33,218 bases of DNA from Methanomassiliicoccales archaeon (lineage in GTDB: Archaea > Thermoplasmatota > Thermoplasmata > Methanomassiliicoccales > UBA472), in contig JAPKYJ010000015.1 in the NCBI GenBank assembly GCA_026394375.1, forward strand, positions 79,265 through 112,482. The letters are read 5' to 3'. A program made the position numbers and the translations under genes. This document shows positions 15,365 through 28,770 of this stretch, piece after piece (the stretch's first letter is position 1; the number at the start of each line of letters is the position of its first letter). The notes beneath the pieces are model-generated. The model had not been told where the DNA came from. It saw only the letters and a program-made list of their open reading frames with translations, and did no database searches.

Positions 15365-15441
15365 GGGCCCGTAGCTCAGCTAGGTGGAGCAATCGGCTCT
15401 TAACCGATGGGTCGTGGGTTCGAATCCCACCGGGCCCGCCA
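15365..15441 (+). tRNA. tRNA-Lys(CTT), intact, with encoded CCA
   Basis: A complete cloverleaf. The acceptor arms GGGCCCG and CGGGCCC pair perfectly. The anticodon stem is ATCGG/CCGAT with loop CTCTTAA, giving anticodon CTT for lysine. The T arm is GTGGG TTCGAAT CCCAC, with discriminator G and genomic CCA. Its 3' end is the target of the integrated island: the last 15 bases plus CCA are repeated at the right end of the island, and the gene stays functional. Confidence 0.96.
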
Positions 15442-15443
15442 CT
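15426..15443 (+). repeat. Left attachment site (attL) in the tRNA-Lys 3' end
   Basis: CCCACCGGGCCCGCCACT, 18 bases, identical to 28753-28770. It covers the 3' T stem, acceptor strand and CCA of tRNA-Lys plus two bases, which is the usual target of tRNA-directed tyrosine recombinases. The base before each copy differs (T on the left, A on the right), so the identity block is sharply bounded. Confidence 0.85.
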
Positions 15444-15790
15444 AAGCATATCCAGTGTTGTCGTGTTTTCGGTCAATAACGCCGTTTTTGGGGGTTATTG
15501 AATTTCGGCTCCACGCTTCCCTGAGCTCTCCGCCGGCTAGGCCCTGCTTGATGCTCGCGTAGTAGCGCTGCGTCGTCGCAGGGCTAGCGTGCCTCAGCTG
15601 CAGAGACATCGCGGGGAGGAGCTTCGGGTCGAGGTTCACGGTCATCGAGGTGATCGTCGACCTGAGGTCCTTGATTATGAACCTCACGCCCGAGGCCTCC
15701 TCGACCAGGTCCTTGATGCTCCGGAGGGACTTGTCGCTGTAGAATCCGTCGGCGCCGGCCCTGAGAATGCGAACATCATTTTCCCCAGCC
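15442..15790 (-). pseudogene. Tyrosine recombinase, C-terminal remnant
   Basis: Its stop codon touches the last base of tRNA-Lys, a typical position for an integrase beside its att site. The minus-strand frame reads GADGFYSDKSLRSIKDLVEEASG, then IKDLRSTITSM, LQLRHASPATTQRYYASI, with the R of DLR, the LRH motif and the catalytic Y. No frame upstream supplies the first half of the catalytic domain. The fragment has no ATG of its own at its true 5' end, and the neighbouring frame overlaps it out of phase around 15684-15790. It is truncated or frameshifted and should be inactive. Confidence 0.8.
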
Positions 15791-16001
15791 AGATGGTCCG
15801 CCGGTCCCTCGCGGCGATCATGAGCTCCTCCAGCTTCCGATCGAAAGCGTCGACGTCCAGCGGCTTCCCCCTCGAGCAGGAGAAGAGCAGCTCCGACACC
15901 AGGTCGATGGCGTCCTCGACCCCTCGCCAGTAGTCGATCGGCATGCCGTCAATCATCTTCAGCTCGATGTGCTCGAGCTCCGTCATCTCGTTCATGGTCA
16001 T
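15684..16001 (-). CDS. Small acidic protein, possibly the 5' part of the broken integrase locus
   Basis: A 105-residue reading frame starting MTMNEMTELEHIELKMIDG with a helical acidic body (GVEDAIDLVSELLF, FDRKLEELMIAARDRR). From about residue 70 it reads through the integrase remnant out of frame, ending SGASRTWSRRPRA, which is shadow sequence. Either a short gene lost its stop or a frameshift near 15790 separated the integrase into two frames. Its ATG overlaps the stop of the ribbon-helix-helix gene upstream by four bases (ATGA), so the first half was a real co-translated gene. Function unknown. Confidence 0.45.
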   Translation of the reverse strand: MTMNEMTELEHIELKMIDGMPIDYWRGVEDAIDLVSELLFSCSRGKPLDVDAFDRKLEELMIAARDRRTIWLGKMMFAFSGPAPTDSTATSPSGASRTWSRRPRA

Positions 16002-16162
16002 GCCTCCAGAGCTTGCTGCTCGTCCATCGCGGCGATCTCGTTCCTCAGCGCCCTCAGGAGCAGGGAGCGGGCGTAGACGGACGGCGGCAAAGCCATCCGC
16101 TTGGCCATGTCTTTGAGCTCCTGGAGGTCTTTCTCGTCAAGCATTATGGTCAGTCCCTTCAT
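15998..16162 (-). CDS. Ribbon-helix-helix (CopG-like) regulator
   Basis: A 54-residue protein, MKGLTIMLDEKDLQELKDMA followed by LPPSVYARSLLLRALRNEI. The pattern is a short beta strand (KGLTIML) and two helices, as in Arc/CopG proteins that bind DNA as dimers through the strand. It is translated into the next gene by an ATGA overlap and is divergent from a second ribbon-helix-helix gene at 16256. It probably represses the leftmost operon through the palindromes at 16175-16226. Confidence 0.7.
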   Translation of the reverse strand: MKGLTIMLDEKDLQELKDMAKRMALPPSVYARSLLLRALRNEIAAMDEQQALEA

Positions 16163-16174
16163 GTGTTCACCATA

Positions 16175-16264
16175 TTAGGCATTCCCTAACCATGCCTAAC
16201 ATTGTCGTATATTAGCGTATACGCTATTAAGCCTTCCTATGGCAATTTGCCCGACATGGTTAGG
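16175..16264. promoter_or_regulatory. Divergent operator region with nested palindromes
   Basis: Between the two divergent ribbon-helix-helix genes are TTAGGCAT (16175-16182) with its inverse ATGCCTAA (16192-16199), and a perfect 14-bp palindrome TAGCGTATACGCTA (16213-16226). CCTAACCATG at 16185-16194 is inverted as CATGGTTAGG at 16255-16264, over the second start codon. GTATATTA just left of the 14-mer is a TATA candidate for the plus-strand gene. Symmetric short sites are what ribbon-helix-helix dimers bind. Confidence 0.55.
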
Positions 16265-16402
16265 CAAAGGGAGAAGCTGACCGTCACGGTTCCACAGGAG
16301 CTAATCGATTGGCTGGATGAGATGGTGAAGAAGAGGGTATTCGCAAGCAGATCCCACGGGGTGGAGCTCTGTATCATGGAGTACAGGGAGAGGCACGGCT
16401 AG
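16256..16402 (+). CDS. Ribbon-helix-helix (CopG/MetJ-like) protein
   Basis: A 48-residue protein. RQREKLTVTVPQELIDWLDEMVKK forms the strand and first helix, and SRSHGVELCIMEYRERH the second helix. It is the common size of archaeal plasmid and virus regulators. The start is the ATG at 16256, not the frame opening at 16202, which would place 18 residues across the operator. It is followed by two membrane-protein genes in the same direction. Confidence 0.75.
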   Translation: MVRQREKLTVTVPQELIDWLDEMVKKRVFASRSHGVELCIMEYRERHG

Positions 16403-16413
16403 AAGGTAAAATT

Positions 16414-16764
16414 GTGACCTCAGGCCTCGAAGGACTGGTAGTGGTTGCCGCTTCTACTTCTGGTGCCGCGATCTACCTAATCTCCCAGCTCAAGCGTTTG
16501 AGCAACGTGCAGCCTCAAGGACAAGTCGTCTTTTCCCCGGGTCGGTCACTCCAATTGATGTTCTTTGCGGCAGGCCTCTTGGCGTTCCTCACCATAGGGG
16601 CAGCAATACCCCTCGTTTGGGATCAACCCGAGAATCCTCTGCTGGAGCTGCTCGCTTACCTAGCCTTTTTCGCTCTATTGTTGACAGTTGTATCGATTGT
16701 CTATCTGGCCAGGAACTGGAAGGACCTGGTTGATCGGAGGGAAGAAGAAGATGACAAGCGCTGA
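16414..16764 (+). CDS. Membrane protein, three helices, function unknown
   Basis: A 116-residue protein with GTG start and AAGGT just upstream. Hydrophobic segments lie near residues 5-24, 47-66 and 76-97, and the end is very charged (RREEEDDKR). No family recognised. It overlaps the next gene by 14 bases, so the two are made together and may form a complex. Confidence 0.6.
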   Translation: MTSGLEGLVVVAASTSGAAIYLISQLKRLSNVQPQGQVVFSPGRSLQLMFFAAGLLAFLTIGAAIPLVWDQPENPLLELLAYLAFFALLLTVVSIVYLARNWKDLVDRREEEDDKR

Positions 16765-17095
16765 GGGGCTTGCCGCAGTCAGCACCGGATTCGCTGGACT
16801 TGCCCTTGTTTCCAATCTTCTCATGTCGTACTTCATTGAGAGGGCCAAGGAGAAGGTTGGCAAGCACAGATGGCAACAGTACGGAGATACCGCGTTCTTC
16901 CTGGCGGTTTGCAGCCTGTTCAACATAGCTGCGGGGGTCCTAGGAGCGCTGGGGATCGCACTACTCACAGGCGGATGGATCAATGATGCAGGTGCTTCCG
17001 TGATAGCAGCCATTGTTATCGGTCTTGGGGGATTAGGCACGCTGATGGCATTCACCTCGATTTTTAGGCACCTGGAATTGAAACATGGTATGTAA
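16751..17095 (+). CDS. Membrane protein, partner of the preceding gene
   Basis: A 114-residue protein starting MTSAEGLAAVSTGFAGLA. Helices lie near residues 5-28, 45-70 and 78-103, with a charged stretch IERAKEKVGKHRWQQYGD between the first two. ATG 16751 lies inside the end of the upstream gene, preceded by GGAGGGAAGAAGAAG. A longer frame from 16688 is out of place within that gene. The family is unknown. The pair is under the same promoter as the ribbon-helix-helix gene. Confidence 0.6.
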   Translation: MTSAEGLAAVSTGFAGLALVSNLLMSYFIERAKEKVGKHRWQQYGDTAFFLAVCSLFNIAAGVLGALGIALLTGGWINDAGASVIAAIVIGLGGLGTLMAFTSIFRHLELKHGM

Positions 17096-17282
17096 TGCAT
17101 TCCTCCTGGAATACGAGGCCTCCGGAGCTCGCGCCTGCAGTTACCGCTTGCAGACCTGCCCCCAGCCTTCATAGGCTTCCATGACGATTTGGTTGTCTGT
17201 GAGTCTAGGAAGGTGACTTGATAGACTCGCTGAGAACGTGAATCCTGTCTCGTCTCTTCTAAGGCTTGTTTATTGAGATAAT

Positions 17283-18143
17283 TCATGGCTTCTTTCTAAT
17301 CTTCAATTGAGGTTTCATGATACCCAGGTTTGCCTCCGAAGCGATTTTGAAAACGGCATCGATCGTCATGCACAAGGTGACAAGGCCTAGAGTAGTATAG
17401 CGAATATCTGCAATCTGTGCCTTTGTTAGAGGTTTTCGTTTACCTGGATATGGATGAAAGTTCATGATGACCTCATTTCCCGACACAAAAAAATCTCTAT
17501 GGGCGATCCAATTACGGAGTTCTACGACCCCCAATGGGAATCCCTTGTCTGCCGACATGCTTCTTACAAAATCACGGATTTCCCTTTTATCATTCTTGGA
17601 TAAGACGCGGTGCTTCCTCCGTAAGTCCAGTTTCTTCTGAATTTGGTCGATGCCATGGCGAATGGATCTCTGTTTCTTTTCCTTATTCAGCTGCGCTTCA
17701 GAATATCCTAGCGCTTCACCATCTGTTTTTCGAACAAGCCAATTTAATCGGAGTAAGGTCGGCCGTAGGATGAATTCAAGATCGTGAGCAACCAGCAATA
17801 ATTCGAGCAGTGATGGATCACCCCCATTCATTCCTATTTCGTTGAGGATTTCATGGGCATTTGCCATTACTTTCACGTCTTCATAAATGGAAGGCTCGAC
17901 AAATGTTCCCTTGAAGCTGAGATTCTTTCTGATTGCTCTCTTCTCTTGGATAGTGACATTTCTATAGAGCTCACAACTCATTTTTGACACTGCAATAAAC
18001 AGTCTGTCCCATTCACCAAGGTCAGCAGAACCTTCATTAAGGTCTCGGTAATAGACGAAAGCAAAATCCGCGAGTCTATCTGGATTATTCTTCACCAACT
18101 CTAGGATTTTCTTATATTCATCCTGCGAATTCCAGAATACCAC
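17283..18143 (-). CDS. HEPN-like protein with RNxxxH motif
   Basis: A 286-residue, mostly helical protein. Its C-terminal half contains VVELRNWIAHRDFFVSG, an R-x4-H motif (R210 to H215) with a polar residue after the arginine. This is the ribonuclease signature of HEPN proteins found in toxin-antitoxin and abortive infection systems. The context is a mobile island, and the gene is alone on the minus strand. The rest of the protein shows no family I recognise, and the fold is inferred from the motif only. Lower GC than the core genes. Confidence 0.5.
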   Translation of the reverse strand: MVFWNSQDEYKKILELVKNNPDRLADFAFVYYRDLNEGSADLGEWDRLFIAVSKMSCELYRNVTIQEKRAIRKNLSFKGTFVEPSIYEDVKVMANAHEILNEIGMNGGDPSLLELLLVAHDLEFILRPTLLRLNWLVRKTDGEALGYSEAQLNKEKKQRSIRHGIDQIQKKLDLRRKHRVLSKNDKREIRDFVRSMSADKGFPLGVVELRNWIAHRDFFVSGNEVIMNFHPYPGKRKPLTKAQIADIRYTTLGLVTLCMTIDAVFKIASEANLGIMKPQLKIRKKP

Positions 18144-18301
18144 AGAATCACATTGCCCAGGTGGATAATGAATCCTCTATTCCTCTCAGCTGTCTTCCAG
18201 TGGATTCTCAAAATTGCGTTTGGGGTCAACCTGCTTGGCTAATATTTATCGAGGATGTCAGCCATTGAGCTAATTGCAGACGCTGCTGGATGCCACTTCA
18301 T

Positions 18302-19420
18302 ATGACTGCATACAAGACTCAGCACTACTTGCCGATGTTCTACATTCGTCGCTTCTCCAGCGATGGGACTGGTCTCTTCCTTCTTTGCGTCGATCAGGGA
18401 ACCATCATAAGAAGGAACCTCAGAGCTGTTGGCTCCGAGCACTACTTTTATGCCGATAAGGAGAATGCAAAGGACTTTGAAACGATAATGTCAGCCATTG
18501 AGAAGAGTCATTCAGAGATATTGGACAAGATAGACGAGGTCAAGGGTTTCGACCGACTCGACGAGAACGACTGGCCTGAGCTGTTGCGCTTTGTCCTTCT
18601 GTGCTCAAGAAGAACCAAGGCATCCAAGATGGAAGCTGAGTCCATCATGAATACCATCATGGCTGCTATGAAGCCAGATATAATGATGTCGCTGCGGTCG
18701 CAGGGCGTTCCCATCTCCGACGTACACAGCATCCGTGTGCAACTCAAGCACGCCGACAGCACTGGCATTCTCGTGGCGCTCGGAGAAGGTCCGCTCTTGA
18801 TATCTGACTTGGCGGTGGCGCTCGTGCGCAACGCGACCGATATTCCATTTATCTGTGGGGATTCACCTGTAGTCTTGTACAATCAAGTCATCCCAACGAT
18901 GACCGCACTGCAGTCACCCGGATTAATGATTCTTTTTCCAATCAGCGAAGAAATGTCAATTCTCTTCTTTGACAAGGAGCTGTACCGGCTCAAGATTCAG
19001 GGCAATGGAATCATCCGCATCGACAAGACAAGCGACGTTGACGAATTGAACAGGCTCCAGATTGTAAATTGCCTTGACTACATCATGTTCTCAAAGGCGT
19101 CAATGACGGCCTACTTGAAGAATCTCTCAAGCAGGCAATTGCGATCATCCATCGAGCAACCACGCACTGAATGCATCATGAGAAAGGAGGAGAATGGCGC
19201 TCAGACGTACCTCAAGACGACTGGCAGACATAGTCAATTCAGGGCGCACTTGTCATTCGTCCGCGTCGACGTTGGCCATGCTAGGCTTCTGCGCTTACAA
19301 GCCGCGGATCTTGCCTTAAGGCCACTCAGTCGTGAAGTCCTCGTAAGGAGTCCTGAGATATCTCGTGCTGTTAGGGAGTCAGAAGAGAAATTCATTGCTT
19401 CGCCATGTTCACGAGAATAG
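18302..19420 (+). CDS. DUF4238 domain protein
   Basis: The N-terminus MTAYKTQHYLPMFYIRRFSSDG, then VGSEHYFYADKENAKDFE, has the QHY(L/V)P-x-FY-L/I-R-x-F pattern of DUF4238. A later segment FICGDSPVV with ILFPISEEMSILFF also fits that family. DUF4238 proteins are common in prophages and islands and their role is unknown. I use the ATG at 18302; one at 18290 adds MPLH. TAATATTTATC at about 18240-18250 is the likely TATA box. The last 70 residues are less conserved and richer in arginine. Confidence 0.75.
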   Translation: MTAYKTQHYLPMFYIRRFSSDGTGLFLLCVDQGTIIRRNLRAVGSEHYFYADKENAKDFETIMSAIEKSHSEILDKIDEVKGFDRLDENDWPELLRFVLLCSRRTKASKMEAESIMNTIMAAMKPDIMMSLRSQGVPISDVHSIRVQLKHADSTGILVALGEGPLLISDLAVALVRNATDIPFICGDSPVVLYNQVIPTMTALQSPGLMILFPISEEMSILFFDKELYRLKIQGNGIIRIDKTSDVDELNRLQIVNCLDYIMFSKASMTAYLKNLSSRQLRSSIEQPRTECIMRKEENGAQTYLKTTGRHSQFRAHLSFVRVDVGHARLLRLQAADLALRPLSREVLVRSPEISRAVRESEEKFIASPCSRE

Positions 19421-19708
19421 ACCTCCTCTCCTCTGGAACTCCGGCCGCCGATCGTGTCTTTCCCGCTGGCACTAACTCAAGGATTGGTAGCCAGGCCCCA
19501 ATTCCGAGGCCTCCCGGGCACGCGATTCCCTGACTTTCGGCCTCGGGAGCTCATCGGCGAGGATCCGGATGTCGACCAGGGAAATTCCTAGCAGTACTGA
19601 AGGCCGCCGGGGGTCGCCAACTGCCAAAATGGCGGAGAACCTCAAAGCCATCGGCCGAGGCTCGAGAGGCTGCAGGACGCATCGAAGCAGGCATCTAGCA
19701 GCAAATCA
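19421..19708. other. Gene-free spacer, GC-rich
   Basis: No reading frame here has a convincing start or codon pattern. The composition is GC-rich unlike the flanking AT-richer genes. On the minus strand one stretch reads as fairly continuous coding-like sequence without a start, so it may be a relic of a lost gene. Confidence 0.4.
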
Positions 19709-20605
19709 CTAGCTTCTCCACAAGCCATACGCTTTGGATTCCTCAATCTCAAGTATGGTCATGCTGAGCAACATCAAGACGAGGGCTGGATCGCGGAACT
19801 CATCATGGTTGAAAGGATGCCCGTACCATTCTCTCTTTTCGACCCAGAAATGGTGGAGGCGATGCCTGTACTTGACAATGAAATCGACCAAGCCGTCGAC
19901 GTCTATGTTGAGCCTCAACGAAACGAAGAGCGGTGCGATTCTCGATTCGAAGTCGGGGTTCCCCCTAATCACTTTCAGAACGGAGTCTGAGCATAGCCGC
20001 AAATCGTTCGACGCCTTCATCGCCCCCTCCACGTCTTTGGTCTTCCCTTCACCGAAGAGGCCTTCCAGAACGTAGTAAAAATCCTGGAAGGCGTTGATGT
20101 ATCTCCGTGCGAGGAACTCGTTCCTTCCCTCTCTGAAGAAGGCGAGCGGGATTTCGATTCTCCATATTCTTGTTAGGTCCCCGTCAATGAATGACCTCCG
20201 GACTCTACGCAGCGGTTCTTCCGGTTCTCTCTTGGTGAACTTGACATTGTTTACGGTGAGCTTCCGTTTCTCCTCCTCGTTGTCTGGGAGCCACTCCTGG
20301 GTTATGTCATCATAGTGGACTCGCTGGACTCCATTTAATGTCAGCGCAGATTCGACCGTATGAAAGAGATTGAGAATCCGCGCATAGCGCTCGGGGTCCC
20401 CACCAATATCCAGACGGCTATGGTCCCCGTTGATTTCTAACTTGGGCGTTTCAGCGGGATCTGTCATCTCATATTCGATGCTCAGTCTAGTGAACACGCC
20501 CCTGTCGTCTCCTCCGAGGGTTATCAGGAATTCCTCAACTTTCTTGAATGCCATCGGGCCAACATAAGTCCTCGAAGTGACCCCACAGGAATATTTCACT
20601 CGCAT
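19709..20605 (-). CDS. Uncharacterised protein with RHxxxH motif
   Basis: A 298-residue protein. The N-terminal half is beta-rich (LSIEYEMTD, LEINGDHSRLDIGGD). The second half is helical with ARRYINAFQDFYYVLEGLFGEGKTKDVE and VDFIVKYRHRLHHFWVEKREWYGHP. The R247-x4-H252 motif RHRLHH resembles the HEPN signature, and the preceding AFxDFYxxLEGL helix fits a HEPN-like bundle. This is weaker than for the gene at 21935 but similar in kind. No family recognised. Transcribed alone toward the gene-free spacer. Confidence 0.45.
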   Translation of the reverse strand: MRVKYSCGVTSRTYVGPMAFKKVEEFLITLGGDDRGVFTRLSIEYEMTDPAETPKLEINGDHSRLDIGGDPERYARILNLFHTVESALTLNGVQRVHYDDITQEWLPDNEEEKRKLTVNNVKFTKREPEEPLRRVRRSFIDGDLTRIWRIEIPLAFFREGRNEFLARRYINAFQDFYYVLEGLFGEGKTKDVEGAMKASNDLRLCSDSVLKVIRGNPDFESRIAPLFVSLRLNIDVDGLVDFIVKYRHRLHHFWVEKREWYGHPFNHDEFRDPALVLMLLSMTILEIEESKAYGLWRS

Positions 20606-20674
20606 CTCCAGTTCCTCCTCAGGCGTGAAACCATCGGAACTTGAATTGGCTGACCGCGGCGAATAGCCTATCGG

Positions 20675-20720
20675 TCAAGGCCCAAGCGCCCGCTCGAGTT
20701 CCTCCTCGGCGAGGCTTCCG
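20675..20720 (-). pseudogene. Tyrosine recombinase, last residues only
   Basis: On the minus strand the frame ending at 20675 reads SLAEEELERALGP then stop. The intact recombinase at 25378 ends GGLAEEELERAFM. The DNA is also alike (CTCGAGTTCCTC then TCGGC). Upstream homology disappears. It is the scar of a recombinase gene whose remainder was deleted, next to the AT-rich nuclease gene. Confidence 0.6.
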
Positions 20721-20760
20721 GTGCTCTTGGCAGGCGGCCAGTTTGTAACCTATTGCACTG

Positions 20761-21726
20761 CTATAGTGGATCAAGCGGAGCAGAACCACAGATGGATCTG
20801 ATGTTGCCAGTGACTCGCTCAAGAGATTCCTCAAGGGAGGCGTAATTCAGAATGTGAATCCTATTGACAGGAGACCCTCTGATAATGTCGTGTGCTGCCT
20901 CCTTATCTAAACCTTGATAATTCTTCAACCAGTCTTCGACCTCCGTCGATAAATACACTGGGTCTGCTTCATTGACTTTATCCATGTAGGTGAATTGGTC
21001 ATGCGTCTGGCTCCTGTTCAGACATATCCCGGGTACTTCCTCAGCGAGATCCATAATGTCTATTGAATTTTCTATCTCTTCCAAAGTGACCTCATCTCGA
21101 AGGATAGACAAGGGTGCTGTTGTAACGATTATAGGAATCGTTAGCGTCGAAAAAGGAAAGACTCCAATTCTTTTCTTATTCGAAATCTTCTGATTGAGCA
21201 TAAAGGAATTAATCCCTATTCCGATTCTATGTATATTGATCGAGGCATAACTCACTTGACTAACTGCTTCTCGAATGACGTTGGGGTTGGAATCACTCTG
21301 GGTCACATCTAGACCAGAATCCGCGATTGGGAGTCCGAAAAGATTTTCGGAGCCCAATAAATATTCCAACTTTGGATTGAACAATTCCCTATTCTTTCTT
21401 CCCCGCGGAGCCTCGATAAAATATGAGAAAAGCATGTTGGAGCCCACATTTCTATATGAATGTGCATATTCATTAAATTTAAAGAAAAACCATTTCTGGT
21501 TTCTATCTTTATATTTACATTCTATAACATAATTAACCATTACCGATGCAGACCTAGAAATCGGATAATTCTGGGAGAACCAGCAGTCGTTAGAAAAAGT
21601 CTTTCCATCTCTCTCGTATTCATAGTCTCCATGATCTTGCAAGTTGAATTTGGCCATTTTCTTTATTACGGATGCTTCCAAAGGAATACCTGACTTCAAG
21701 ATTATGGATTTAAGGTTCTTCGTCAT
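20761..21726 (-). CDS. Predicted PD-(D/E)xK nuclease, restriction-like
   Basis: A 321-residue protein from AT-rich DNA. The N-terminal region has E17 (GIPLEASVIKKM), then GDYEYERDGKTFSNDCWF with D47, then YVIECKYKD with E69 and K71. This E...D...ExK order is the catalytic core of restriction-endonuclease-like PD-(D/E)xK proteins, and IECK is its most typical form. The rest is unassigned and could be the target-recognition or partner domain. No methyltransferase gene lies near, so it is not an ordinary restriction-modification pair. It begins just after a stretch rich in A/T, and its end abuts the recombinase scar at 20675. Confidence 0.6.
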   Translation of the reverse strand: MTKNLKSIILKSGIPLEASVIKKMAKFNLQDHGDYEYERDGKTFSNDCWFSQNYPISRSASVMVNYVIECKYKDRNQKWFFFKFNEYAHSYRNVGSNMLFSYFIEAPRGRKNRELFNPKLEYLLGSENLFGLPIADSGLDVTQSDSNPNVIREAVSQVSYASINIHRIGIGINSFMLNQKISNKKRIGVFPFSTLTIPIIVTTAPLSILRDEVTLEEIENSIDIMDLAEEVPGICLNRSQTHDQFTYMDKVNEADPVYLSTEVEDWLKNYQGLDKEAAHDIIRGSPVNRIHILNYASLEESLERVTGNIRSICGSAPLDPL

Positions 21727-21934
21727 CTTGCTTCAATTTTACATGGATAACTGGCTAATAATGATATTCCTGCTTCTTCCACAATATGACCTGCGGAGGA
21801 GAACGATCGACCGATATCGTCCCACTAATTCTTTCTTACCTCTAGCTCCTCCTCAGCGATTCGGACTATCGCAGGCCTGGAGTAGCTGCTTGCTCTTCTT
21901 CAGCCAGGCCTCCAGCATAATGGACACCAGTACG

Positions 21935-22567
21935 CTAGAATCCTTCGTCTAGCCATGTGCAGAAGACCTCTATCACCCCAAGGAGGTCGGGCGCGGCCGC
22001 TACAATGCCAAGATTCAGGTCATAATCCCACGGCTCTAGAGTGCAATCTGGATATCTCGTGCTTTGGTCATGCGTCCTCGCGATGAGCCCGAGCAGCGTT
22101 AGGAAGCCGTACATGGTCATCCGGTTCGTGAAGTCCTCAGGCTCGATCTCAGCCATTATCCCTCCGGGCAAGTCTTCGACCTTGATCTCTCCATAATTGG
22201 AGATTAGCTGTTCGAAGTCGTCTTTAGCTAACAGGGCGCACTTGTGCTTGATTTCGTTCAGTCTTCTGATGTGTTCACCAAGCCTGGTGACATCCGCCTC
22301 ACGGCCGTCGATCACTTCTTTCTGGGTCTTTTCGAGAGAGTGCTTGAGGATGGCAAGGAAGTCGTGGCTCTTCATATCCGAGAGGGTGAGACCCATGCGC
22401 TCTCCTAGCAACAGATATGCCTTTATTGCCTTCTCAGCTGCCTGGCAAAGGTGATAGGTCCCGGCTGCATGCAGTCCCGCCCCATGCAGCAATCTCGACG
22501 CCTTGGCATCGAGCCTAACGCACTTGATGAGTTCAGCTGCATATGTTACTTCGGCGTCCGCGGTCAT
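21935..22567 (-). CDS. HEPN domain protein
   Basis: About 210 residues. AGTYHLCQAAEKAIKAYLLLGERMG is a textbook HEPN helix (A-x-x-QAAEKA-x-KA), followed by KSHDFLAILKHSLEK and RRLNEIKHKC with an R-x5-H motif (about R102 to H108). HEPN proteins of mobile elements are often RNases, paired with MNT-type nucleotidyltransferases. No such partner is adjacent, although a nucleotidyltransferase lies at 26275. The ATG at 22567 follows TATATGC (about 22589-22600) at the TATA distance. A frame opening at 22693 would cross the promoter and the recombinase scar. Confidence 0.72.
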   Translation of the reverse strand: MTADAEVTYAAELIKCVRLDAKASRLLHGAGLHAAGTYHLCQAAEKAIKAYLLLGERMGLTLSDMKSHDFLAILKHSLEKTQKEVIDGREADVTRLGEHIRRLNEIKHKCALLAKDDFEQLISNYGEIKVEDLPGGIMAEIEPEDFTNRMTMYGFLTLLGLIARTHDQSTRYPDCTLEPWDYDLNLGIVAAAPDLLGVIEVFCTWLDEGF

Positions 22568-22685
22568 CGTCTTCAAAGTCAGCCAATGCATATAAGCAAT
22601 TTGCGCTGGCCAGTCCCCAGTGCACCGCCCATTCCCGTCCTTCCAGAAAACGGCTCGAATTGCGATATGGTGCCTTGCTTGAGCT

Positions 22686-22832
22686 TCAGACACCGAACCT
22701 CGTCGCGTCCCGATACGTCCTCGAGCGCTGCCGAATGTTCAGGTGGAGGTATATCTGCGTCGTTTCGATGTCCTCGTGGCCTAGGTCTTTCCGGACGGCC
22801 TCGAGCTTGATTCCTTTGTCTGACTGCCATTG
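22686..22832 (-). pseudogene. Tyrosine recombinase, C-terminal remnant
   Basis: The minus-strand frame reads GIKLEAVRKDLGHEDIETTQIYLHL, ending RDATRFGV and stop. LGHEDIETTQIYLH is the conserved C-terminal box with the second histidine region and the catalytic tyrosine of tyrosine recombinases. Upstream the frame hits a stop at about 22845 and no further homology is seen, so only the last 49 residues survive. It is of a different subfamily from the remnant at 15442 and from the gene at 25378. Confidence 0.8.
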
Positions 22833-22978
22833 ATCACCTCAAACGGAGGGTTCGAATCTTGTGCTGTATGATGGGCTCTTGGAGAACACCGAGACGCACG
22901 TCCAAGAACGGGCAATGAACGCGGTGGAGGCCATTCGGAAATGGAGACTGAGGTCGAATAACTTCCTATGCGAAGCTT

Positions 22979-23401
22979 TCAGGGTTCAAGGGGCACTCGG
23001 TCATGTGACGCAACCTCGGTCATGTATTGCCCATCGCAGATCCACACCTGTGGATGAGCCCCCCCAATTCCAATCAACTGCTCTCGCCTTTCTAGGATTA
23101 CCGCCATTATCGACTTGTTTGCATTTATCGCGATAACGACGATCACTAGGTGCTTCCCATCCTTGAGCGCCTTTTTATAACTATCGAGTTTCTCAGGAAG
23201 GAGAAACCCCGAGAGAGTCTCGAAAAACTCCATGCCAGTCTTGCCCCTATGCCCAAGATTGATTCTGACATATGGAATTTCTTGGTTTGTGTGCTCAACA
23301 ATCGGATTCTCCACTATTTCAGCGTGGAATACCTTCTTCAGGTACTTTCGTCTTGTCCGTTCAATCCTCATCATTAGTGCAATTTGCGCGTCTTGATTCA
23401 T
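22979..23401 (-). CDS. Uncharacterised protein
   Basis: A 140-residue protein starting MNQDAQIALMMRIERTRRKYLKK, with a beta-rich middle (HLVIVVIAINANKSIMAVILERR) and IGIGGAHPQVWICDGQYM near the end. The middle strands resemble an alpha/beta fold but I see no diagnostic motif. Possible coding status is supported by length and by its ATG. It is alone on the minus strand. Confidence 0.4.
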   Translation of the reverse strand: MNQDAQIALMMRIERTRRKYLKKVFHAEIVENPIVEHTNQEIPYVRINLGHRGKTGMEFFETLSGFLLPEKLDSYKKALKDGKHLVIVVIAINANKSIMAVILERREQLIGIGGAHPQVWICDGQYMTEVASHDRVPLEP

Positions 23402-23426
23402 AGAGTTGGTTCAGGAGGGCGGGGTT

Positions 23427-23540
23427 ATGAAACTTGGCGTGAGAATCTCAAGAATAGATTCATATGGTGACTTGGTCGCTAGAGAATGGAGTATCTTTCA
23501 TCTCAGTTCAATGATTAGGGGCTGTGGATTTGGAGTCTAA
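23427..23540 (+). CDS. Possible small protein (37 residues)
   Basis: ATG at 23427 is preceded by AGGAGG with an 8-base spacing, the best Shine-Dalgarno in the island. It encodes MKLGVRISRIDSYGDLVARE followed by a short hydrophobic tail. No homology recognised and no promoter is obvious. Too short to be sure it is a gene. Confidence 0.25.
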   Translation: MKLGVRISRIDSYGDLVAREWSIFHLSSMIRGCGFGV

Positions 23541-23778
23541 GACATCTGCACCCTTACTTCCTTGTCCTCATTATGGACCTCTTATCCAACTTCGGCTAAA
23601 GCTTAAGGTCGAGGGAATCTGATGCGGCACGACCCAGGACCAACGATCGCGCGTCCCATGACCGATGAAATGCTGAGCCTTCTATAGCGCTCTCCCGCTT
23701 CATCGGCGGAAGGGGATTGAGCAGGGGTGGGTCTTCAGAGAAGAGAAGAGCGCTGAATCCCAAAGGCAACTTTCGGGT
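23541..23778. other. Gene-free spacer before the TGT-like gene end
   Basis: About 240 bases with no supported gene on either strand. Stop codons interrupt all frames. Confidence 0.5.
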
Positions 23779-25008
23779 TTAGAAATCCTCCGATGTCTTT
23801 TGTCTACTGATTGCATTTAGAATCGTTTGGAGCTCCTTCGTCGCTGCTTTCTTGTCAGAGACGTGATCAAGGTACTTTCCCTTGTCTATAAGTTTGGATG
23901 CCTGGGACATCTCCTTATGTGCGGCGTGAAGACGATGTATCTTTAAATCCTGTTGAAGTGCCTTGAGGTCCTCATTCGTGTTCGAACGGTTATAAATATC
24001 AATAGGCGACTTGATTCGACTGCATGTGGGGCATTGGCATCGAAGCGTGTGCGACTCCATGAGCTTCTTGAGACCTTCGCATGTATATGCTCCATAGGTA
24101 TCGGTCGTGTAGTATCTTTTCTTGGGAATCTTACCTTGAATCTTCTGCGGAGTCTCCGGGTCCGCATCGAATCCCCTTCGCATTCCTCCGAATGAGTCGA
24201 ACCCGTATACCGAAACCAGCAGATCGTAGGTGGGTTGAACGGACGAAGCGTGAGTGCCATGCCAGTTGAAGTGGGGGACGTTCGTGCCGTGGATGAGAAG
24301 ACTATCCCAGTTAGGTACGCTATCGATAATCCCCCTCATCCTTGATTGCTTGATTTTGGCACCGCCGCAATCGAAAGTGAGCGATTCGAATCCGTTCTCA
24401 AGATAGGTCTTTGTGATCTTCTTGGCGGTTTCTTCGCTTATGGCATAAGGGACCATTCCAGAGATGGCATATTCCTCTAGGAAGTCTCCCTTCCTGGTCG
24501 AATAGACTGAGGACCCTATCTTAGCCCATTGTAACTCATGGGCATCATCCATGATCATCGGGGGAATGAGGATATCGATGCCCTCGATGTCGAATAGGTC
24601 GAACACCTTTTGCACCATCTTCTCCGTTGGGGCCGGGAACGGCCTGAAATCCATTGGGTCTTCGTTGGGACTTCGTTCATTGACAAAGTAAGGGAATGCA
24701 ATGTTGATGCCGGAGTCGCCAATGTCTGATAGTGTGTTTTGAAGGGCGTTCTTGATATTGTGGTGCTCAGAGTCACTCGTGACGATTGCCCTTAACCGCT
24801 TTGGGTTAATCTTCAACCCAATTTCATTGATAATCGTCCTCTCAACCTGTTTCTTAGCGATGTCAGTTTCAATCTGGGATTCAGTGCTAATGTTCGCGGC
24901 CTTCAGCGGAAGGTCCACCCTCTTTCTGTTGATCGTTACCCTGGTGTGCTTGGCCCTTCTATCGTCGCGGTCCTTTCTTGCATCAATTCCTATTCTTGCT
25001 CTTGACAT
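23779..25008 (-). CDS. tRNA-guanine transglycosylase-like protein; DpdA-like DNA-modification candidate
   Basis: A 409-residue protein (from the ATG at 25008). It has the order of parts of the TGT/DpdA barrel. First come alternating strands and helices (GINIAFPYFV, GIDILIPPMIM, then ESLTFDCGGAKIK). Then YDLLVSVYGFDSFGGMRRGF is the counterpart of the TGT segment with FDC and PTR. Finally there is a zinc site CQCPTC with a histidine near 28 residues later (HRLHAAH). Family TGT enzymes swap guanine for a 7-deazaguanine in tRNA; DpdA relatives do so in DNA of phages and islands. The catalytic aspartates are not obvious: the FDC-like D may be F-G here. In an island with a ribbon-helix-helix partner, a DNA role is my inference. 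A second, divergent TGT function in RNA remains possible. Confidence 0.55.
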   Translation of the reverse strand: MSRARIGIDARKDRDDRRAKHTRVTINRKRVDLPLKAANISTESQIETDIAKKQVERTIINEIGLKINPKRLRAIVTSDSEHHNIKNALQNTLSDIGDSGINIAFPYFVNERSPNEDPMDFRPFPAPTEKMVQKVFDLFDIEGIDILIPPMIMDDAHELQWAKIGSSVYSTRKGDFLEEYAISGMVPYAISEETAKKITKTYLENGFESLTFDCGGAKIKQSRMRGIIDSVPNWDSLLIHGTNVPHFNWHGTHASSVQPTYDLLVSVYGFDSFGGMRRGFDADPETPQKIQGKIPKKRYYTTDTYGAYTCEGLKKLMESHTLRCQCPTCSRIKSPIDIYNRSNTNEDLKALQQDLKIHRLHAAHKEMSQASKLIDKGKYLDHVSDKKAATKELQTILNAISRQKTSEDF

Positions 25009-25159
25009 ACCTCTCACCGCTCCAATTTTTCTGGATGAACTCGTCCAATGCCTCTTTTATGAAATCGCTCTGCGTTTTCCACAAGCCAGTCTCCGCTACG
25101 ATCGTCTCTATCTCAGCCTTCATGGCCTCAGAGATTCGGACGGCTACGAAAGGGCACAT
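24983..25159 (-). CDS. Ribbon-helix-helix regulator, first gene of the TGT-like operon
   Basis: A 58-residue protein: MCPFVAVRISEAMKAEIETI then TGLWKTQSDFIKEALDEFI. Strand plus two helices with the S-x-F-I-x-E-A-L second helix typical of CopG-type repressors. TATA AACATAAATA at 25181-25190 lies 22-31 bases before the ATG, so it is leaderless. Its 3' end overlaps the TGT-like gene by 26 bases, which carries its own GGTGAGAGG. It probably binds the TGTTATACA repeats just upstream and so controls its own operon. Confidence 0.75.
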   Translation of the reverse strand: MCPFVAVRISEAMKAEIETIVAETGLWKTQSDFIKEALDEFIQKNWSGERYVKSKNRN

Positions 25160-25180
25160 AAATAGGGATTGGTTACACCC

Positions 25181-25254
25181 TATTTATGTTTTACAGTCTG
25201 TTATACAAATTGTTATACAGGAAGGATTATGGATGTATAACATTTCGTTATACA
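25181..25254 (-). promoter_or_regulatory. Promoter and TGTTATACA operator cluster of the RHH/TGT-like operon
   Basis: The TATA box AACATAAATA (minus strand, 25181-25190) is followed upstream by four copies of a 9-mer: TGTTATACA at 25199-25207 and 25211-25219, the inverse TGTATAACA at 25234-25242, and CGTTATACA (one mismatch) at 25246-25254. Centre spacing of the first pair is 12 bases, about one helical turn. This is the pattern of cooperative ribbon-helix-helix binding. Confidence 0.65.
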
Positions 25255-25345
25255 ATTGCCAATTTGAATTATCTGGCAATAAGAAATATTGAATCTAACA
25301 ACTCATAATTGGATACTAATCGCGGTTGCTGACATCATAAATGAA

Positions 25346-25372
25346 TAATAACTTCTGTTAAAAAAGTTATTA
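25346..25372 (-). terminator. AT-rich hairpin after the integrase
   Basis: TAATAACTT (25346-25354) and AAGTTATTA (25364-25372) form a perfect 9-bp inverted repeat with a 9-base loop, six bases past the integrase stop. It may end transcription of the integrase or bind a regulator. Confidence 0.45.
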
Positions 25373-25377
25373 CCGTC

Positions 25378-25932
25378 TTACATGAACGCCCTCTCGAGTT
25401 CCTCTTCGGCCAAGCCGCCAGCCCTCTGGATGTAGTACTGCGCGATCTTCAGCTGGCCCCAGCCGAAGAGGTCGCAGAGGACCCGGGGGTTCTTGACCTT
25501 GTACGCCAGCCTCGTGGCCGCCGTCACCCGGAGCGAATGCGGATAGGTCCGGGCCTCAAGCCCGGACCTCTCGGCTATACGCTGCACGATCCGGTAGACG
25601 GTGATTCGGTGTATTCCGAGCCGCTCGTAGGCGGTAAAGTAGGCCCTGACCGCGTCCCACGCCCTCCGAGACATCTTGAGCGCGGGGATGGTCCTCGCCC
25701 CCCACCTGGTCTTCGGGGTCCAGCCGTCCCTGTCGCTCGACGGGATGATGATGTGCCCCTTCTGGAAGTTGAGCCAGGACCTCTGCAGGTGCGCAATCTC
25801 CCCCTCCCTCATGCCCAGGTCGCCGGCGAGCAGCAGGATCAGGAGCTCTTCCGGGCGGTCGGGGTCCGCGGCCTGCAGCAGCTGCTCGTATTGCTCTTCA
25901 TCGAGAGCGTCGTCGCGGGATCCCATGATCAT
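25378..25932 (-). CDS. Tyrosine recombinase (integrase), intact catalytic domain
   Basis: A 184-residue protein with the complete tyrosine recombinase catalytic set: R in GDLGMREGEIAHLQRSW (near residue 42), H-x-x-R in YPHSLRVTAATRLAYKV, and the nucleophile in IAQYYIQRAGG. It lacks the usual N-terminal core-binding domain, so it is a short form or relies on a partner. It is GC-rich unlike its AT-rich neighbours, suggesting a separate origin. The likely start is ATG 25932 or 25926, with TATA CTTATAAG at 25952-25959. It is the only complete recombinase, so probably responsible for the latest integration event, though it is 2.8 kb from the right att. Confidence 0.9.
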   Translation of the reverse strand: MIMGSRDDALDEEQYEQLLQAADPDRPEELLILLLAGDLGMREGEIAHLQRSWLNFQKGHIIIPSSDRDGWTPKTRWGARTIPALKMSRRAWDAVRAYFTAYERLGIHRITVYRIVQRIAERSGLEARTYPHSLRVTAATRLAYKVKNPRVLCDLFGWGQLKIAQYYIQRAGGLAEEELERAFM

Positions 25933-25936
25933 CGAT

Positions 25937-26155
25937 ATGCAACCAATGGCACTTATAAGGTTGCATTGTGCAACATTTGAGGGTGTTGATCCTATAAGGT
26001 ATCGACCGAGAATAAGAAAGAATGCAACAATTCATGCTGAAATGTTGCATATTATGAGGCGCAAGATTGTGCATTCATTCCAGATTTGCCTCTTTATTCT
26101 TTTCTCTGAGCAAAGATGGGAATTCTATTGAGAATATGACTCGCTTCATGTTGCA
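25937..26155. promoter_or_regulatory. Integrase promoter with repeated TGCAAC sites
   Basis: ATGCAACC (25937-25944) and GGTTGCAT (25959-25966) are a perfect inverted repeat around the TATA box CTTATAAG. More copies are TGCAACA (25969-25975), ATGCAACA (26022-26029), its inverse TGTTGCAT (26043-26050), and ATGTTGCA (26148-26155). This looks like an operator array for the integrase, or arm-type recombinase binding sites. Confidence 0.55.
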
Positions 26156-26274
26156 CCTAGATACTTCGAATAAGTCTGAGGAAATGCCTTATTACATATT
26201 CATGAGGTGAGAATATGGTGGCGTCTTTCTTCCTAATTAGCTCGTGAGGTCTTAGACAGTCCACATTGGCTAAG
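26156..26274. other. AT-rich gap without genes
   Basis: About 120 bases between the integrase control region and the nucleotidyltransferase stop. I see no gene or clear signal. Confidence 0.5.
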
Positions 26275-27108
26275 CTAGGGTTCGTTCAGATTTACTTTGT
26301 TGGGTTTTACTGTCTTATCGATTACTATAATTCCCGCTTTCTCGAGATTCGATAGATATTGTCTAACTTGAGCGGGTTTCATTTTCAAACCATTGCTGAT
26401 CTTTGGCACTGTATTCAGGCCCCCTTTGATCTGTTCTAGAACTAACTTACTACCAAGTTTAACCTCAGCTATCTTACTCAGCTCCCTTTTCCAAGGAATA
26501 GAAATGCCATATTTCTTCTCCATCTCCTCTATCTTTATCAAAAGAAATACTTCCCAGATTCTACCTCCTATTAAATCATCATGTTGACTCTGGAATCGAC
26601 ATTCCGTCAAGAGTGTCTCTTTATCGATTCCCTTTCGATAAAGTACAATCATATCGTCAAGATCTCTATTGCGCTCGGTTACACTTTTCAAAAGAAAGAT
26701 GTCTTCTCTTGAGCATAGACTGAGAGAAATTTGGCTAAGGTCGCTGTAAAACTCTGATCGTTTTTTCATGCCCTGACTGAAAATTAGTTTGTCGCATATT
26801 GTTCCAACAAAAATGTCAATTCTCATGCCTCTTGATATAGTCAATATTCTTGCATCTACTAGACTCTTGCATTCAACAGGAGGTCGAATACTCACCTCAA
26901 AACCAAGCCTTGTTAATGCTTTGTTCAATTCTTCTGCGTGTTCTTCAGATTCCAGAATTAGATCAACATCTTTGGTGGCATCCTTCTCCCCCCTGATGGC
27001 CATCGCACCCCCACCGACCAAATATACCGATATGTTCTTGGAGCATATCTTACCAGCTTCAACTAATACCGATAAAACCTCTTCCTTGTTGAATTGGGTA
27101 GTCTCCAC
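26275..27108 (-). CDS. Nucleotidyltransferase-fold protein, AbiEii-like toxin candidate
   Basis: A 277-residue protein. VYLVGGGAMAIRGEKDATKDVDLIL (about residues 28-52) has the GG and DxD of the polymerase-beta nucleotidyltransferase fold, with MRIDIFVG as the third acidic strand. The C-terminus carries a winged helix-turn-helix (VPKISNGLKMKPAQVRQYLSNLEKAGIIVI). Such proteins include the AbiEii toxin of type IV toxin-antitoxin and abortive infection systems. The GTG start follows the stop of the preceding regulator with no gap. The regulator-then-nucleotidyltransferase order matches AbiEi/AbiEii. Function inferred. Confidence 0.65.
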   Translation of the reverse strand: METTQFNKEEVLSVLVEAGKICSKNISVYLVGGGAMAIRGEKDATKDVDLILESEEHAEELNKALTRLGFEVSIRPPVECKSLVDARILTISRGMRIDIFVGTICDKLIFSQGMKKRSEFYSDLSQISLSLCSREDIFLLKSVTERNRDLDDMIVLYRKGIDKETLLTECRFQSQHDDLIGGRIWEVFLLIKIEEMEKKYGISIPWKRELSKIAEVKLGSKLVLEQIKGGLNTVPKISNGLKMKPAQVRQYLSNLEKAGIIVIDKTVKPNKVNLNEP

Positions 27109-28041
27109 TTATTGCACCCCATATTGGCGATAAAGGTCATCAATGTCGATTCTACTTGGCAGAAACGGATTGGTAGTTTTCCTGCTAGACACGAAGTCGA
27201 TTATTTCTTTTACAAGCTTATTGATTCCAACAGATCTAGCTTCTCGCAATAAGTACTTGGAGTCGAACCCAGTCTTCTTTAGTAATAACATGGAGTAACT
27301 TATTCCCCGTGTGCTATATGGGTCTATCAGCAGATTGTGAATAGCCACATCTTCGGTTCTTAAGTCTGGATGCCAATACGAATAATAATAATAGTTTGTC
27401 TCAGAAACGAATTGCAGACCATAATTTGCCATTGCAGATATGCATGTTTTCTGGATTCCCGTAGAATCATCTAGTGAGGGGGTTGAAAAAATGCATTCTA
27501 AACCACCACTCCAAAGCAGAATCCCAAATTTTGTTTTCATTTCCACAATCTTAATGTTTACACCTTTTGAGAAATCCTGCAAGAACTGAGCCATAAAAAC
27601 GTCAGTGGATGAAATCATAATCTTGGATTCTTTCTGAGTCACCACCCCATAATTCCTTAGGCTCCAAACCAGGACTCTTACCGTATCCTGCTTAAGTTTG
27701 GTCTCTTTTGCTATTCGTTTAACGCTTTTGGGAAAATGCGATATTGCTAGGAGAACGAGAAGTTTTGACCCTATGATTGCATCGAGGGGGTGCTCATTCG
27801 ATAGAACATATCTCTTTAATGCTGCCGCATGGAGATCTGTACTCGGTAGGAATTGAATACCCCGGTCGCCATGGCTCGTTACTACTTTTTTCTTATTAAG
27901 CGCTTCAGCTATCCGGTAAACGGTTTTGTTCGATGAGCTTGTGGATTTTACAATATCATTCACTGACATGTTGCCTAGGCAAATCGCTCGAAATGCCTCA
28001 AGCTGATTCTTAGTGTAAGTAAAGGTGAAGTTAAACATCAT
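27109..28041 (-). CDS. Winged-helix regulator, AbiEi-like antitoxin candidate
   Basis: A 310-residue protein with two helix-turn-helix units: TKNQLEAFRAICLGNMSVNDIVKSTSSSNKTVYRIAEAL near the N-terminus, and FPKSVKRIAKETKLKQDTVRVLVWSL near residue 120, followed by a mixed C-terminal domain. The start is the ATG at 28041 or 28038: TATA TCTATATAAAG at 28061-28071 sits at the leaderless distance. A frame opening at 28113 spans the promoter. It is read into the nucleotidyltransferase gene without a gap. I call the pair AbiE-like by arrangement, not by seen family motifs. Confidence 0.65.
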   Translation of the reverse strand: MMFNFTFTYTKNQLEAFRAICLGNMSVNDIVKSTSSSNKTVYRIAEALNKKKVVTSHGDRGIQFLPSTDLHAAALKRYVLSNEHPLDAIIGSKLLVLLAISHFPKSVKRIAKETKLKQDTVRVLVWSLRNYGVVTQKESKIMISSTDVFMAQFLQDFSKGVNIKIVEMKTKFGILLWSGGLECIFSTPSLDDSTGIQKTCISAMANYGLQFVSETNYYYYSYWHPDLRTEDVAIHNLLIDPYSTRGISYSMLLLKKTGFDSKYLLREARSVGINKLVKEIIDFVSSRKTTNPFLPSRIDIDDLYRQYGVQ

Positions 28042-28060
28042 GTTACCAAATTGACATTTC

Positions 28061-28071
28061 TTTATATAGAT
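28061..28071 (-). promoter_or_regulatory. TATA box of the AbiE-like operon
   Basis: TCTATATAAAG on the minus strand, centred 25 bases before the ATG at 28041. A flanking inverted pair TTGACAA (28225-28231) and TTGTCAA (28247-28253) around ACTTATAATG lies further upstream and may be a second promoter or operator. Confidence 0.6.
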
Positions 28072-28275
28072 TTTGTCATTTTCATAACAGACAATTTTAC
28101 AATTAATACTCAATCATAGGCTATGAAAAAAGCGACATATTATGAACTGGTTATCGATTTTATGAAAACGAATTATCTTTAGATGTTCGATTCATTCGTT
28201 TCTTAATTCCTTATTGTAATGGATTTGACAATTTACTTATAATGATTTGTCAATTTCATTACACTCAATCGAAAC

Positions 28276-28307
28276 GGCATACATCTACTGCGCAGTAGAT
28301 GTATGCC
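28276..28307. repeat. Perfect 32-bp palindrome
   Basis: GGCATACATCTACTGC is followed at once by its exact reverse complement, so it forms a 16-bp hairpin stem or cruciform with no spacer. It stands in the intergenic AT-rich region upstream of the AbiE-like operon, 0.45 kb from the right att. It is too perfect to be random. Confidence 0.9.
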
Positions 28308-28599
28308 ACGACAACGAGGCAGAATACCTACGTTTTATCCAGTACCTATTGAGTCATATCCAAAAGATCCTACTGGCGTATTAGAAAAAGCTTGGAACGA
28401 TCGATCATTCCATTCTCTGGGGAATAATCCAGGTGAGACAACGGACACTCGGGGGGTCACTGCCGAGAATCCTGGGTTAACTAGCTTTCGAGTTACCCCA
28501 CTGTTACCCCACAGATACCCCCTAGTTGACCTTGAGTTAACCTACTACTCTCCTCTCTATCCAGATAGAGAAGAAAGAAGGAAAGGCGGCGTGTTGTGA
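28303..28599 (+). CDS. Possible small protein of doubtful coding status
   Basis: A 98-residue frame starting inside the palindrome (MPRQRGRIPTFYPVPIESYP) with a proline-rich end. There is no ribosome site or TATA box at a convincing distance, and its body overlaps the short repeats at 28440-28555. I list it only because it is the longest frame in this end of the island. Confidence 0.2.
   Translation: MPRQRGRIPTFYPVPIESYPKDPTGVLEKAWNDRSFHSLGNNPGETTDTRGVTAENPGLTSFRVTPLLPHRYPLVDLELTYYSPLYPDREERRKGGVL
28440..28555. repeat. Short TTACCCCA-type repeats near the right end
   Basis: A cluster of related 8-mers: GTTACCCCA follows GAGTTACCCCA, then AGATACCCCC, and the inverse pair TGGGTTAAC (about 28473) and GAGTTAACC (about 28534). 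They are about 12 bases apart, like iterons or arm-type integrase sites near the end of the element. Confidence 0.4.
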
Positions 28600-28752
28600 G
28601 TAGGGGAGAGGGGAGGGAGATGCGCAAGACCACCTTAGTGGCCCATGAAGGTGGGAAAGAAAAGAAAGGGTTTGGCCGGCTCGAACTCACGGGAAGCGGA
28701 GCCTCGTTATTGACGTCGAAACCCGACTAACTGGATGTGGCGGCTGGTGCTA

Positions 28753-28770
28753 CCCACCGGGCCCGCCACT
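28753..28770 (+). repeat. Right attachment site (attR)
   Basis: CCCACCGGGCCCGCCACT, the displaced copy of the tRNA-Lys 3' end, identical to 15426-15443. No cloverleaf 5' part precedes it, so it is not a second tRNA gene. GC-rich core genes resume right of it. Confidence 0.85.

Follow-up and report, generated by a model that had tools for sequence, protein, structure and literature searches.

A perfect palindrome beside an operator-like promoter copy

The window analysed here, a stretch of 33,218 nucleotides, carries a perfect palindrome of 32 bp (28276-28307; no strand assigned) near the right end of an island inserted at a tRNA-Lys gene, within the intergenic stretch that holds the control sequences of a two-gene module to its left on the minus strand. 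We tentatively favour the reading that the palindrome serves at P2, where the module's operator occurs a second time, as a symmetric site for protein binding, and that template switching made it perfect only recently. The palindrome has the look of something local, either regulatory or mutational, rather than of a part of island integration.

The two 16-bp arms (GGCATACATCTACTGC and GCAGTAGATGTATGCC) meet with a spacer of 0 and pair at 16/16 positions (100% complementary), exactly as a prior inspection based on the DNA letters alone (the sequence-only reading) had described. This is the sole perfect inverted repeat in the window with an arm of at least 13 bp and a spacer of up to 30, the runner-up having a 12-bp arm and a 10-nt spacer. 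From base composition, the expected number of such palindromes is 9e-6 for the window and 4.7e-4 for the genome; the palindrome is real, and these figures exclude chance. The longest zero-spacer arm in a sample of its own genome (20 stretches; 323,759 of 1,732,336 bases) was 9 bp, and 293,946 bases from 20 related island regions yielded one palindrome with arms of at least 11 (spacer up to 4) and none with an arm of at least 13.

Only one copy of the palindrome is present in its own genome. Its 28-base core, with up to three mismatches permitted, matched one of the 400 genomes of the class, namely that of the window itself, and was absent from the other 399; the exact 28-base core had no match in the genome collection, and neither it nor the exact 18-base core had one in IMG/VR. 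The wider region 28110-28760 showed DNA similarity in relatives only as a single 25-base chance match (in genome G017), and 28200-28760 showed none in plasmids. The search for the same palindrome elsewhere, which the sequence-only reading had proposed, thus found no relative that carries it. A complete lack of conservation had been taken in advance to point to chance or to a recent local origin; the first is excluded by the numbers given above, which leaves the second as a possible explanation.

A two-gene module with a TATA-centred operator

The module comprises a regulator gene (27109-28041, minus strand) encoding two winged helix-turn-helix (HTH) domains and an HVO_2833_C domain, which is the probable antitoxin and autoregulator, and a DUF6036 nucleotidyltransferase gene (26275-27108, minus strand) with a C-terminal winged HTH, the probable toxin. 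HVO_2833_C was found in 24 of 29 regulator members and DUF6036 in all 29 nucleotidyltransferase members. The structure model of the regulator had a pLDDT of 94, with none of its 50 best fold matches reaching an E-value of 0.001 and no AbiEi or Rv2827c chain among them. For the nucleotidyltransferase, a profile matched MenT1 (E 2e-5) and the structure model gave fold matches to MenT1 and LnuA, the single sequence alone having no match in the PDB; AbiEii models matched some of its members only, for example PDLC02291 in 6/29. The module was not filed as AbiE because AbiEi and Rv2827c are missing from the 50 best fold matches of the regulator, and because the toxin is a DUF6036 protein with partial AbiEii matches.

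Relatives of the regulator were found in 45 of the 400 class genomes, including that of the window, and the two genes were adjacent as ORFs of at least 150 aa at 44 of 50 loci. A scan of a named genome collection retrieved 78 nucleotidyltransferase loci, from Thermoplasmata, ANME-2, Bathyarchaeota, Thaumarchaeota, Thermococci, DPANN archaea and others; 66 of these loci have a regulator on their own strand. The regulator had no phage relatives and none in IMG/VR. In the literature searched there was no mention of HVO_2833, PF24271, HVO_2832 or HTH_Cmi2, and no publication was recognised as dealing with the HVO_2833_C and DUF6036 module. The module loci are 26275-28089 in the window, together with L006-L034, L100-L119 and L140-L217.

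The putative operator and promoter of the module, P1 (28041-28089, minus strand), is an inverted repeat built around a TATA box, and the last base of P1 coincides with the A that opens the start codon, which makes the start leaderless. Its arms pair at 13/16 positions across a spacer of 17, with a shuffle fraction of 0.03. The same arrangement was observed in relatives, where an inverted repeat at the regulator start has a central TATA box and ends at the leaderless start codon. With shuffle fractions up to 0.05 counted as significant, such TATA-centred repeats reached this level at 21/50 module starts, a set to which two further ORFs were too short to be added and in which one ORF was counted twice (loci L008 and L119 overlap). 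In a fresh set of modules, from which 33 duplicates of earlier modules, along with modules short of upstream DNA, had been excluded, 13/35 were significant, as against 2/20 control ORFs with a TATA-like box, or 0/5 under a stricter choice of controls. Across both module sets the significant operators paired at 12-15 of the 16 arm positions, and never at all 16.

P2 and the palindrome as an operator-like site

P2 (28215-28263) is a second 49-bp copy of the operator with a TATA-like box at its centre and arms that are complementary at 15/17 positions; only 12 bp separate it from the palindrome. It is identical to P1 at 34/49 bases when compared on the opposite strand, a level reached by 0/2000 shuffles, and at 31/49 in the same direction. 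The motif TGACA, 13-19 bases, TGTCA occurs in the window at P1 and P2 only. The difference between 34 and 31 of 49, together with a TATA register like that of P1, weakly suggests that P2 faces rightward on the plus strand, in which case its RNA would start at 28263 and the palindrome would occupy about +14 to +45. In 12 of 45 modules a second operator-like copy was present at a shuffle fraction no higher than 0.05. In four related genomes (L014-L017) the operator-like sequence has a second, direct copy upstream of the same module, at about -118 relative to where the regulator begins, with shuffle fractions of at most 0.02.

Three roles had been put forward for the palindrome in the sequence-only reading, and that of a dimer-binding operator has the strongest support, given that only 12 bp lie between the palindrome and a second operator-like promoter copy; it is regarded here as a putative site. 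In the proposed scheme the palindrome would be a cis-regulatory DNA element in the intergenic region that serves the AbiE-like module near the right end of the tRNA-Lys island, with P2 acting as a rightward promoter that a symmetric (dimeric) protein bound to the palindrome would block or tune, and the two could together contribute to the complex that represses the module. The palindrome may have begun as a less perfect dyad, such as one around ACT-GCGC-AGT, that replication template switching perfected recently; pairing at 16/16 argues for such a recent event at the DNA level, since the significant operators fall short of full pairing. This shortfall of the operators, and the absence of the palindrome from every relative examined, also count against the operator reading. 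The centre of the palindrome is also perfectly symmetric, and an RNA hairpin explains this less well than would a protein dimer or an event at the DNA level. The palindrome arms do not resemble the half-sites of P1 and P2. Antitoxins of the AbiE/MenAT kind bind several inverted repeats at their own promoter, and for Rv2827c passages in PMC7319586 describe two sets.

Judged by analogy, the region around the palindrome is most like the promoter regions of the AbiE/MenAT type IV toxin-antitoxin systems (AbiEi-AbiEii; Rv2827c-Rv2826c; MenA-MenT), with which it shares a gene order in which the regulator comes before the nucleotidyltransferase, a nucleotidyltransferase whose profile and model match MenT1, and inverted repeats over the promoter, there being more than one set in Rv2827c according to the same passages of PMC7319586. 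The differences are that the regulator here is an HVO_2833_C protein with two winged HTH domains, with no AbiEi chain among its 50 best fold matches, that the DUF6036 toxin has a C-terminal winged HTH of its own, and that an archaeal TATA box lies inside the operator, at a start that is leaderless. AbiE itself has been reported for Thermoplasmatota in a passage of PMC12988326. The operators of dimeric winged-HTH proteins of the ArsR, MarR and TrmB types likewise have dyad symmetry in the promoter region, but the palindrome differs from them in being perfect over 32 bp, including its centre, and in having no second copy in the genome.

By itself the palindrome is a modest local feature. More general is the archaea-wide HVO_2833_C and DUF6036 module in whose promoter an inverted repeat encloses the TATA box, as this TATA-centred operator offers a model, directly open to testing, of how an archaeal family of AbiE-like toxin-antitoxin systems may be regulated, and P2 with the palindrome is a named site where a further layer of control could act.

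Palindromes upstream of related modules

Compact palindromes (arm of at least 11, spacer of up to 4) were sought upstream of 45 of the 50 module starts, those of L008, L010, L013, L019 and one of the two in L119 being left out. Six were found in 20,149 bases, at 3/45 loci (the window, L029 and L034), compared with 0.02 in shuffles and one in the 293,946 bases of the control islands. L029, L034 and L106, in the last of which the arm is 9 bases, have one such palindrome in common (L029:1403-1461, L034:2418-2476 and L106:2420-2440), with 4/13 pairs changed on both sides and pairing kept; this was equalled by 7/500 shuffles and concerns three sequences only. These palindromes, of family f16, are like that of the window in being compact, perfect or near-perfect and placed ahead of the same module, at a distance of 71-166 bases from the start, whereas they are AT-rich, have a 2-3 nt spacer, differ in sequence and lie closer to the start.

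Compact palindromes are therefore over-represented upstream of the module, yet they are not conserved there. None of the six modules most similar to that of the window (L006-L011, regulators 37-43% identical) has a palindrome, and in the prospective set a palindrome with an arm of at least 11 was found in 1/35 modules (0.05 expected), which may be something else. Together these two results indicate that the palindrome is not a conserved part of the module, and the prospective set weakens the idea that it is a general one.

Alternative explanations for the palindrome

The main rival, which we take seriously, if less readily, is that the palindrome is a functionless relic of a fold-back or template-switch mutation in which the copying of one arm made the palindrome perfect, perhaps at the junction between the AT-rich control region of the module and the att-proximal DNA. 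The uniqueness of its sequence, its perfect pairing and its lack of relatives are consistent with this origin, as is a shift in base composition at the palindrome, from 26% GC in 28001-28250 to 46% in the adjacent 250-base block (28251-28500); the AT-rich surroundings noted previously are thus found on its left side but not on its right. Passages in PMC8794818 describe how template switching creates and perfects hairpins in a single event, and the hairpins described there share with the palindrome perfect pairing and a short four-base loop-like centre. They differ in that here the ancestral sequence that would show the event is absent, which counts against a relic, and the palindrome adjoins an operator copy, as a random event need not. 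An ORF that starts in the right arm (28303-28599) also fits a relic, in that it does not look coding, its second codon positions being 49% GC where the range in ten other genes of the window is 32-44%; it was rejected as a gene, with no relative in 100 other genomes or IMG/VR.

It is unlikely, in our estimation, that the palindrome serves as an RNA hairpin (14-bp stem, GCGC loop) at the 5' end of a divergent P2 transcript, whether as a stabiliser, an attenuator or a small RNA under the module's own repressor. Both the register of the P2 TATA box, which as in P1 would place the start at 28263 and the hairpin from +14, and the predicted RNA fold of 28260-28330 (-24.6 kcal/mol, z -5.8, with equal stability in 0/200 shuffles) are consistent with such a hairpin. 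However, its four loop bases are self-complementary, a property for which an RNA has no need and which chance would give in 1 of 16 cases, there is no conserved relative with paired changes, and no Rfam family was found at the palindrome. We consider it very improbable, by extension, that P2 is a divergent promoter under the repressor of the toxin module and that its small RNA opens with a hairpin acting as a substrate of the nucleotidyltransferase, a decoy or an RNA antitoxin; if this were true, the module would gain a third part, made of RNA. The proposal that the hairpin stops transcription did not hold, as the stem is not followed by a T run on either strand and the terminator scan reported nothing there, and an intrinsic terminator was accordingly rejected.

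The palindrome was also considered as a transposon end or repeat, with two 16-bp ends placed head to head, and this was rejected because no other site in the genome matches the arm with up to one mismatch. In 60 other genomes the arm gave three single one-mismatch matches, and its reversed control gave two.

The tRNA-Lys island and its att sites

The target of the island is a tRNA-Lys (CTT) gene (15365-15441, plus strand). An 18-bp core comprising the 3' end of this tRNA (15426-15443, plus strand) recurs at 28753-28770 on the same strand, from which it follows that the element spans 15426-28770; the right att that the sequence-only reading had placed near the palindrome is thereby confirmed. 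Both att flanks contain the short blocks CATATCCAG, TCAATA and GGGTTT in inverted order, in arm-like arrays at 15444-15545 and 28672-28752, and by eye similar inverted blocks flank the cores of the tRNA islands L087, L091 and L094. An alignment of the left flank with the reversed right flank scored 48 (200 shuffles: mean 38.7, highest 76), which under this loose scoring is not significant; the relation between the flanks is accepted only on the ground that, by eye, all three related islands show these blocks too.

We regard it as improbable that the palindrome is a recombination, resolution or replication site of the island, be it an att accessory, a site of the hairpin-telomere type or an origin. 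Its position is suggestive, in that the right att core lies 445 bp to its right and three tandem 11-bp repeats (GTTACCCCACT, GTTACCCCACA and GATACCCCCTA; 28492-28524, plus strand, read from the sequence), which are possible integrase or accessory arm sites, are situated between the two. The short repeats had been described as lying beside the palindrome, but the copies of TTACCCCA (28493 and 28504) are at least 185 bp distant, and two such copies were also attained in 6/100 shuffles. Against this, in L087, L091 and L094, the three of 13 related loci tested in which the far att could be identified, the inverted arm sites are shared while no palindrome occurs within 600 bp of the far att (0/3), so that in this family of islands the palindrome does not belong to the att sites; its candidacy as an att or integrase accessory site was rejected on the same ground. 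Nor was a replication or protelomerase-like protein recognised in the ORFs scanned, the Pfam scan of 20 ORFs having returned no replication protein, and the earlier suggestion of a resolution or replication site is thus not borne out.

That the palindrome is an assembly artefact is barely credible, since although the genome is in 31 contigs, the palindrome lies well inside one of 112 kb, and fold-back chimeras yield long arms, unlike the 16-bp arms seen here.

Several further features of the island were recorded. The integrase frame adjoining the left att (15442-16001) is broken across two reading frames. A short tyrosine recombinase of 184 aa is encoded at 25378-25932, with no relative in IMG/VR, a relative of 66% identity in genome G003 and a copy elsewhere in its own genome (L043:1657-2199) that is 93% identical. 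Between the recombinase gene and the gene for a 412-aa protein (p412; 23779-25017) is a cluster of inverted and direct repeats (25156-25372; ACATAAATAGGG..CCCTATTTATGT and copies of TGTTATACA), and the 412-aa protein itself shows weak similarity (E 0.0026) to the archaeal tRNA-guanine transglycosylase TgtA.
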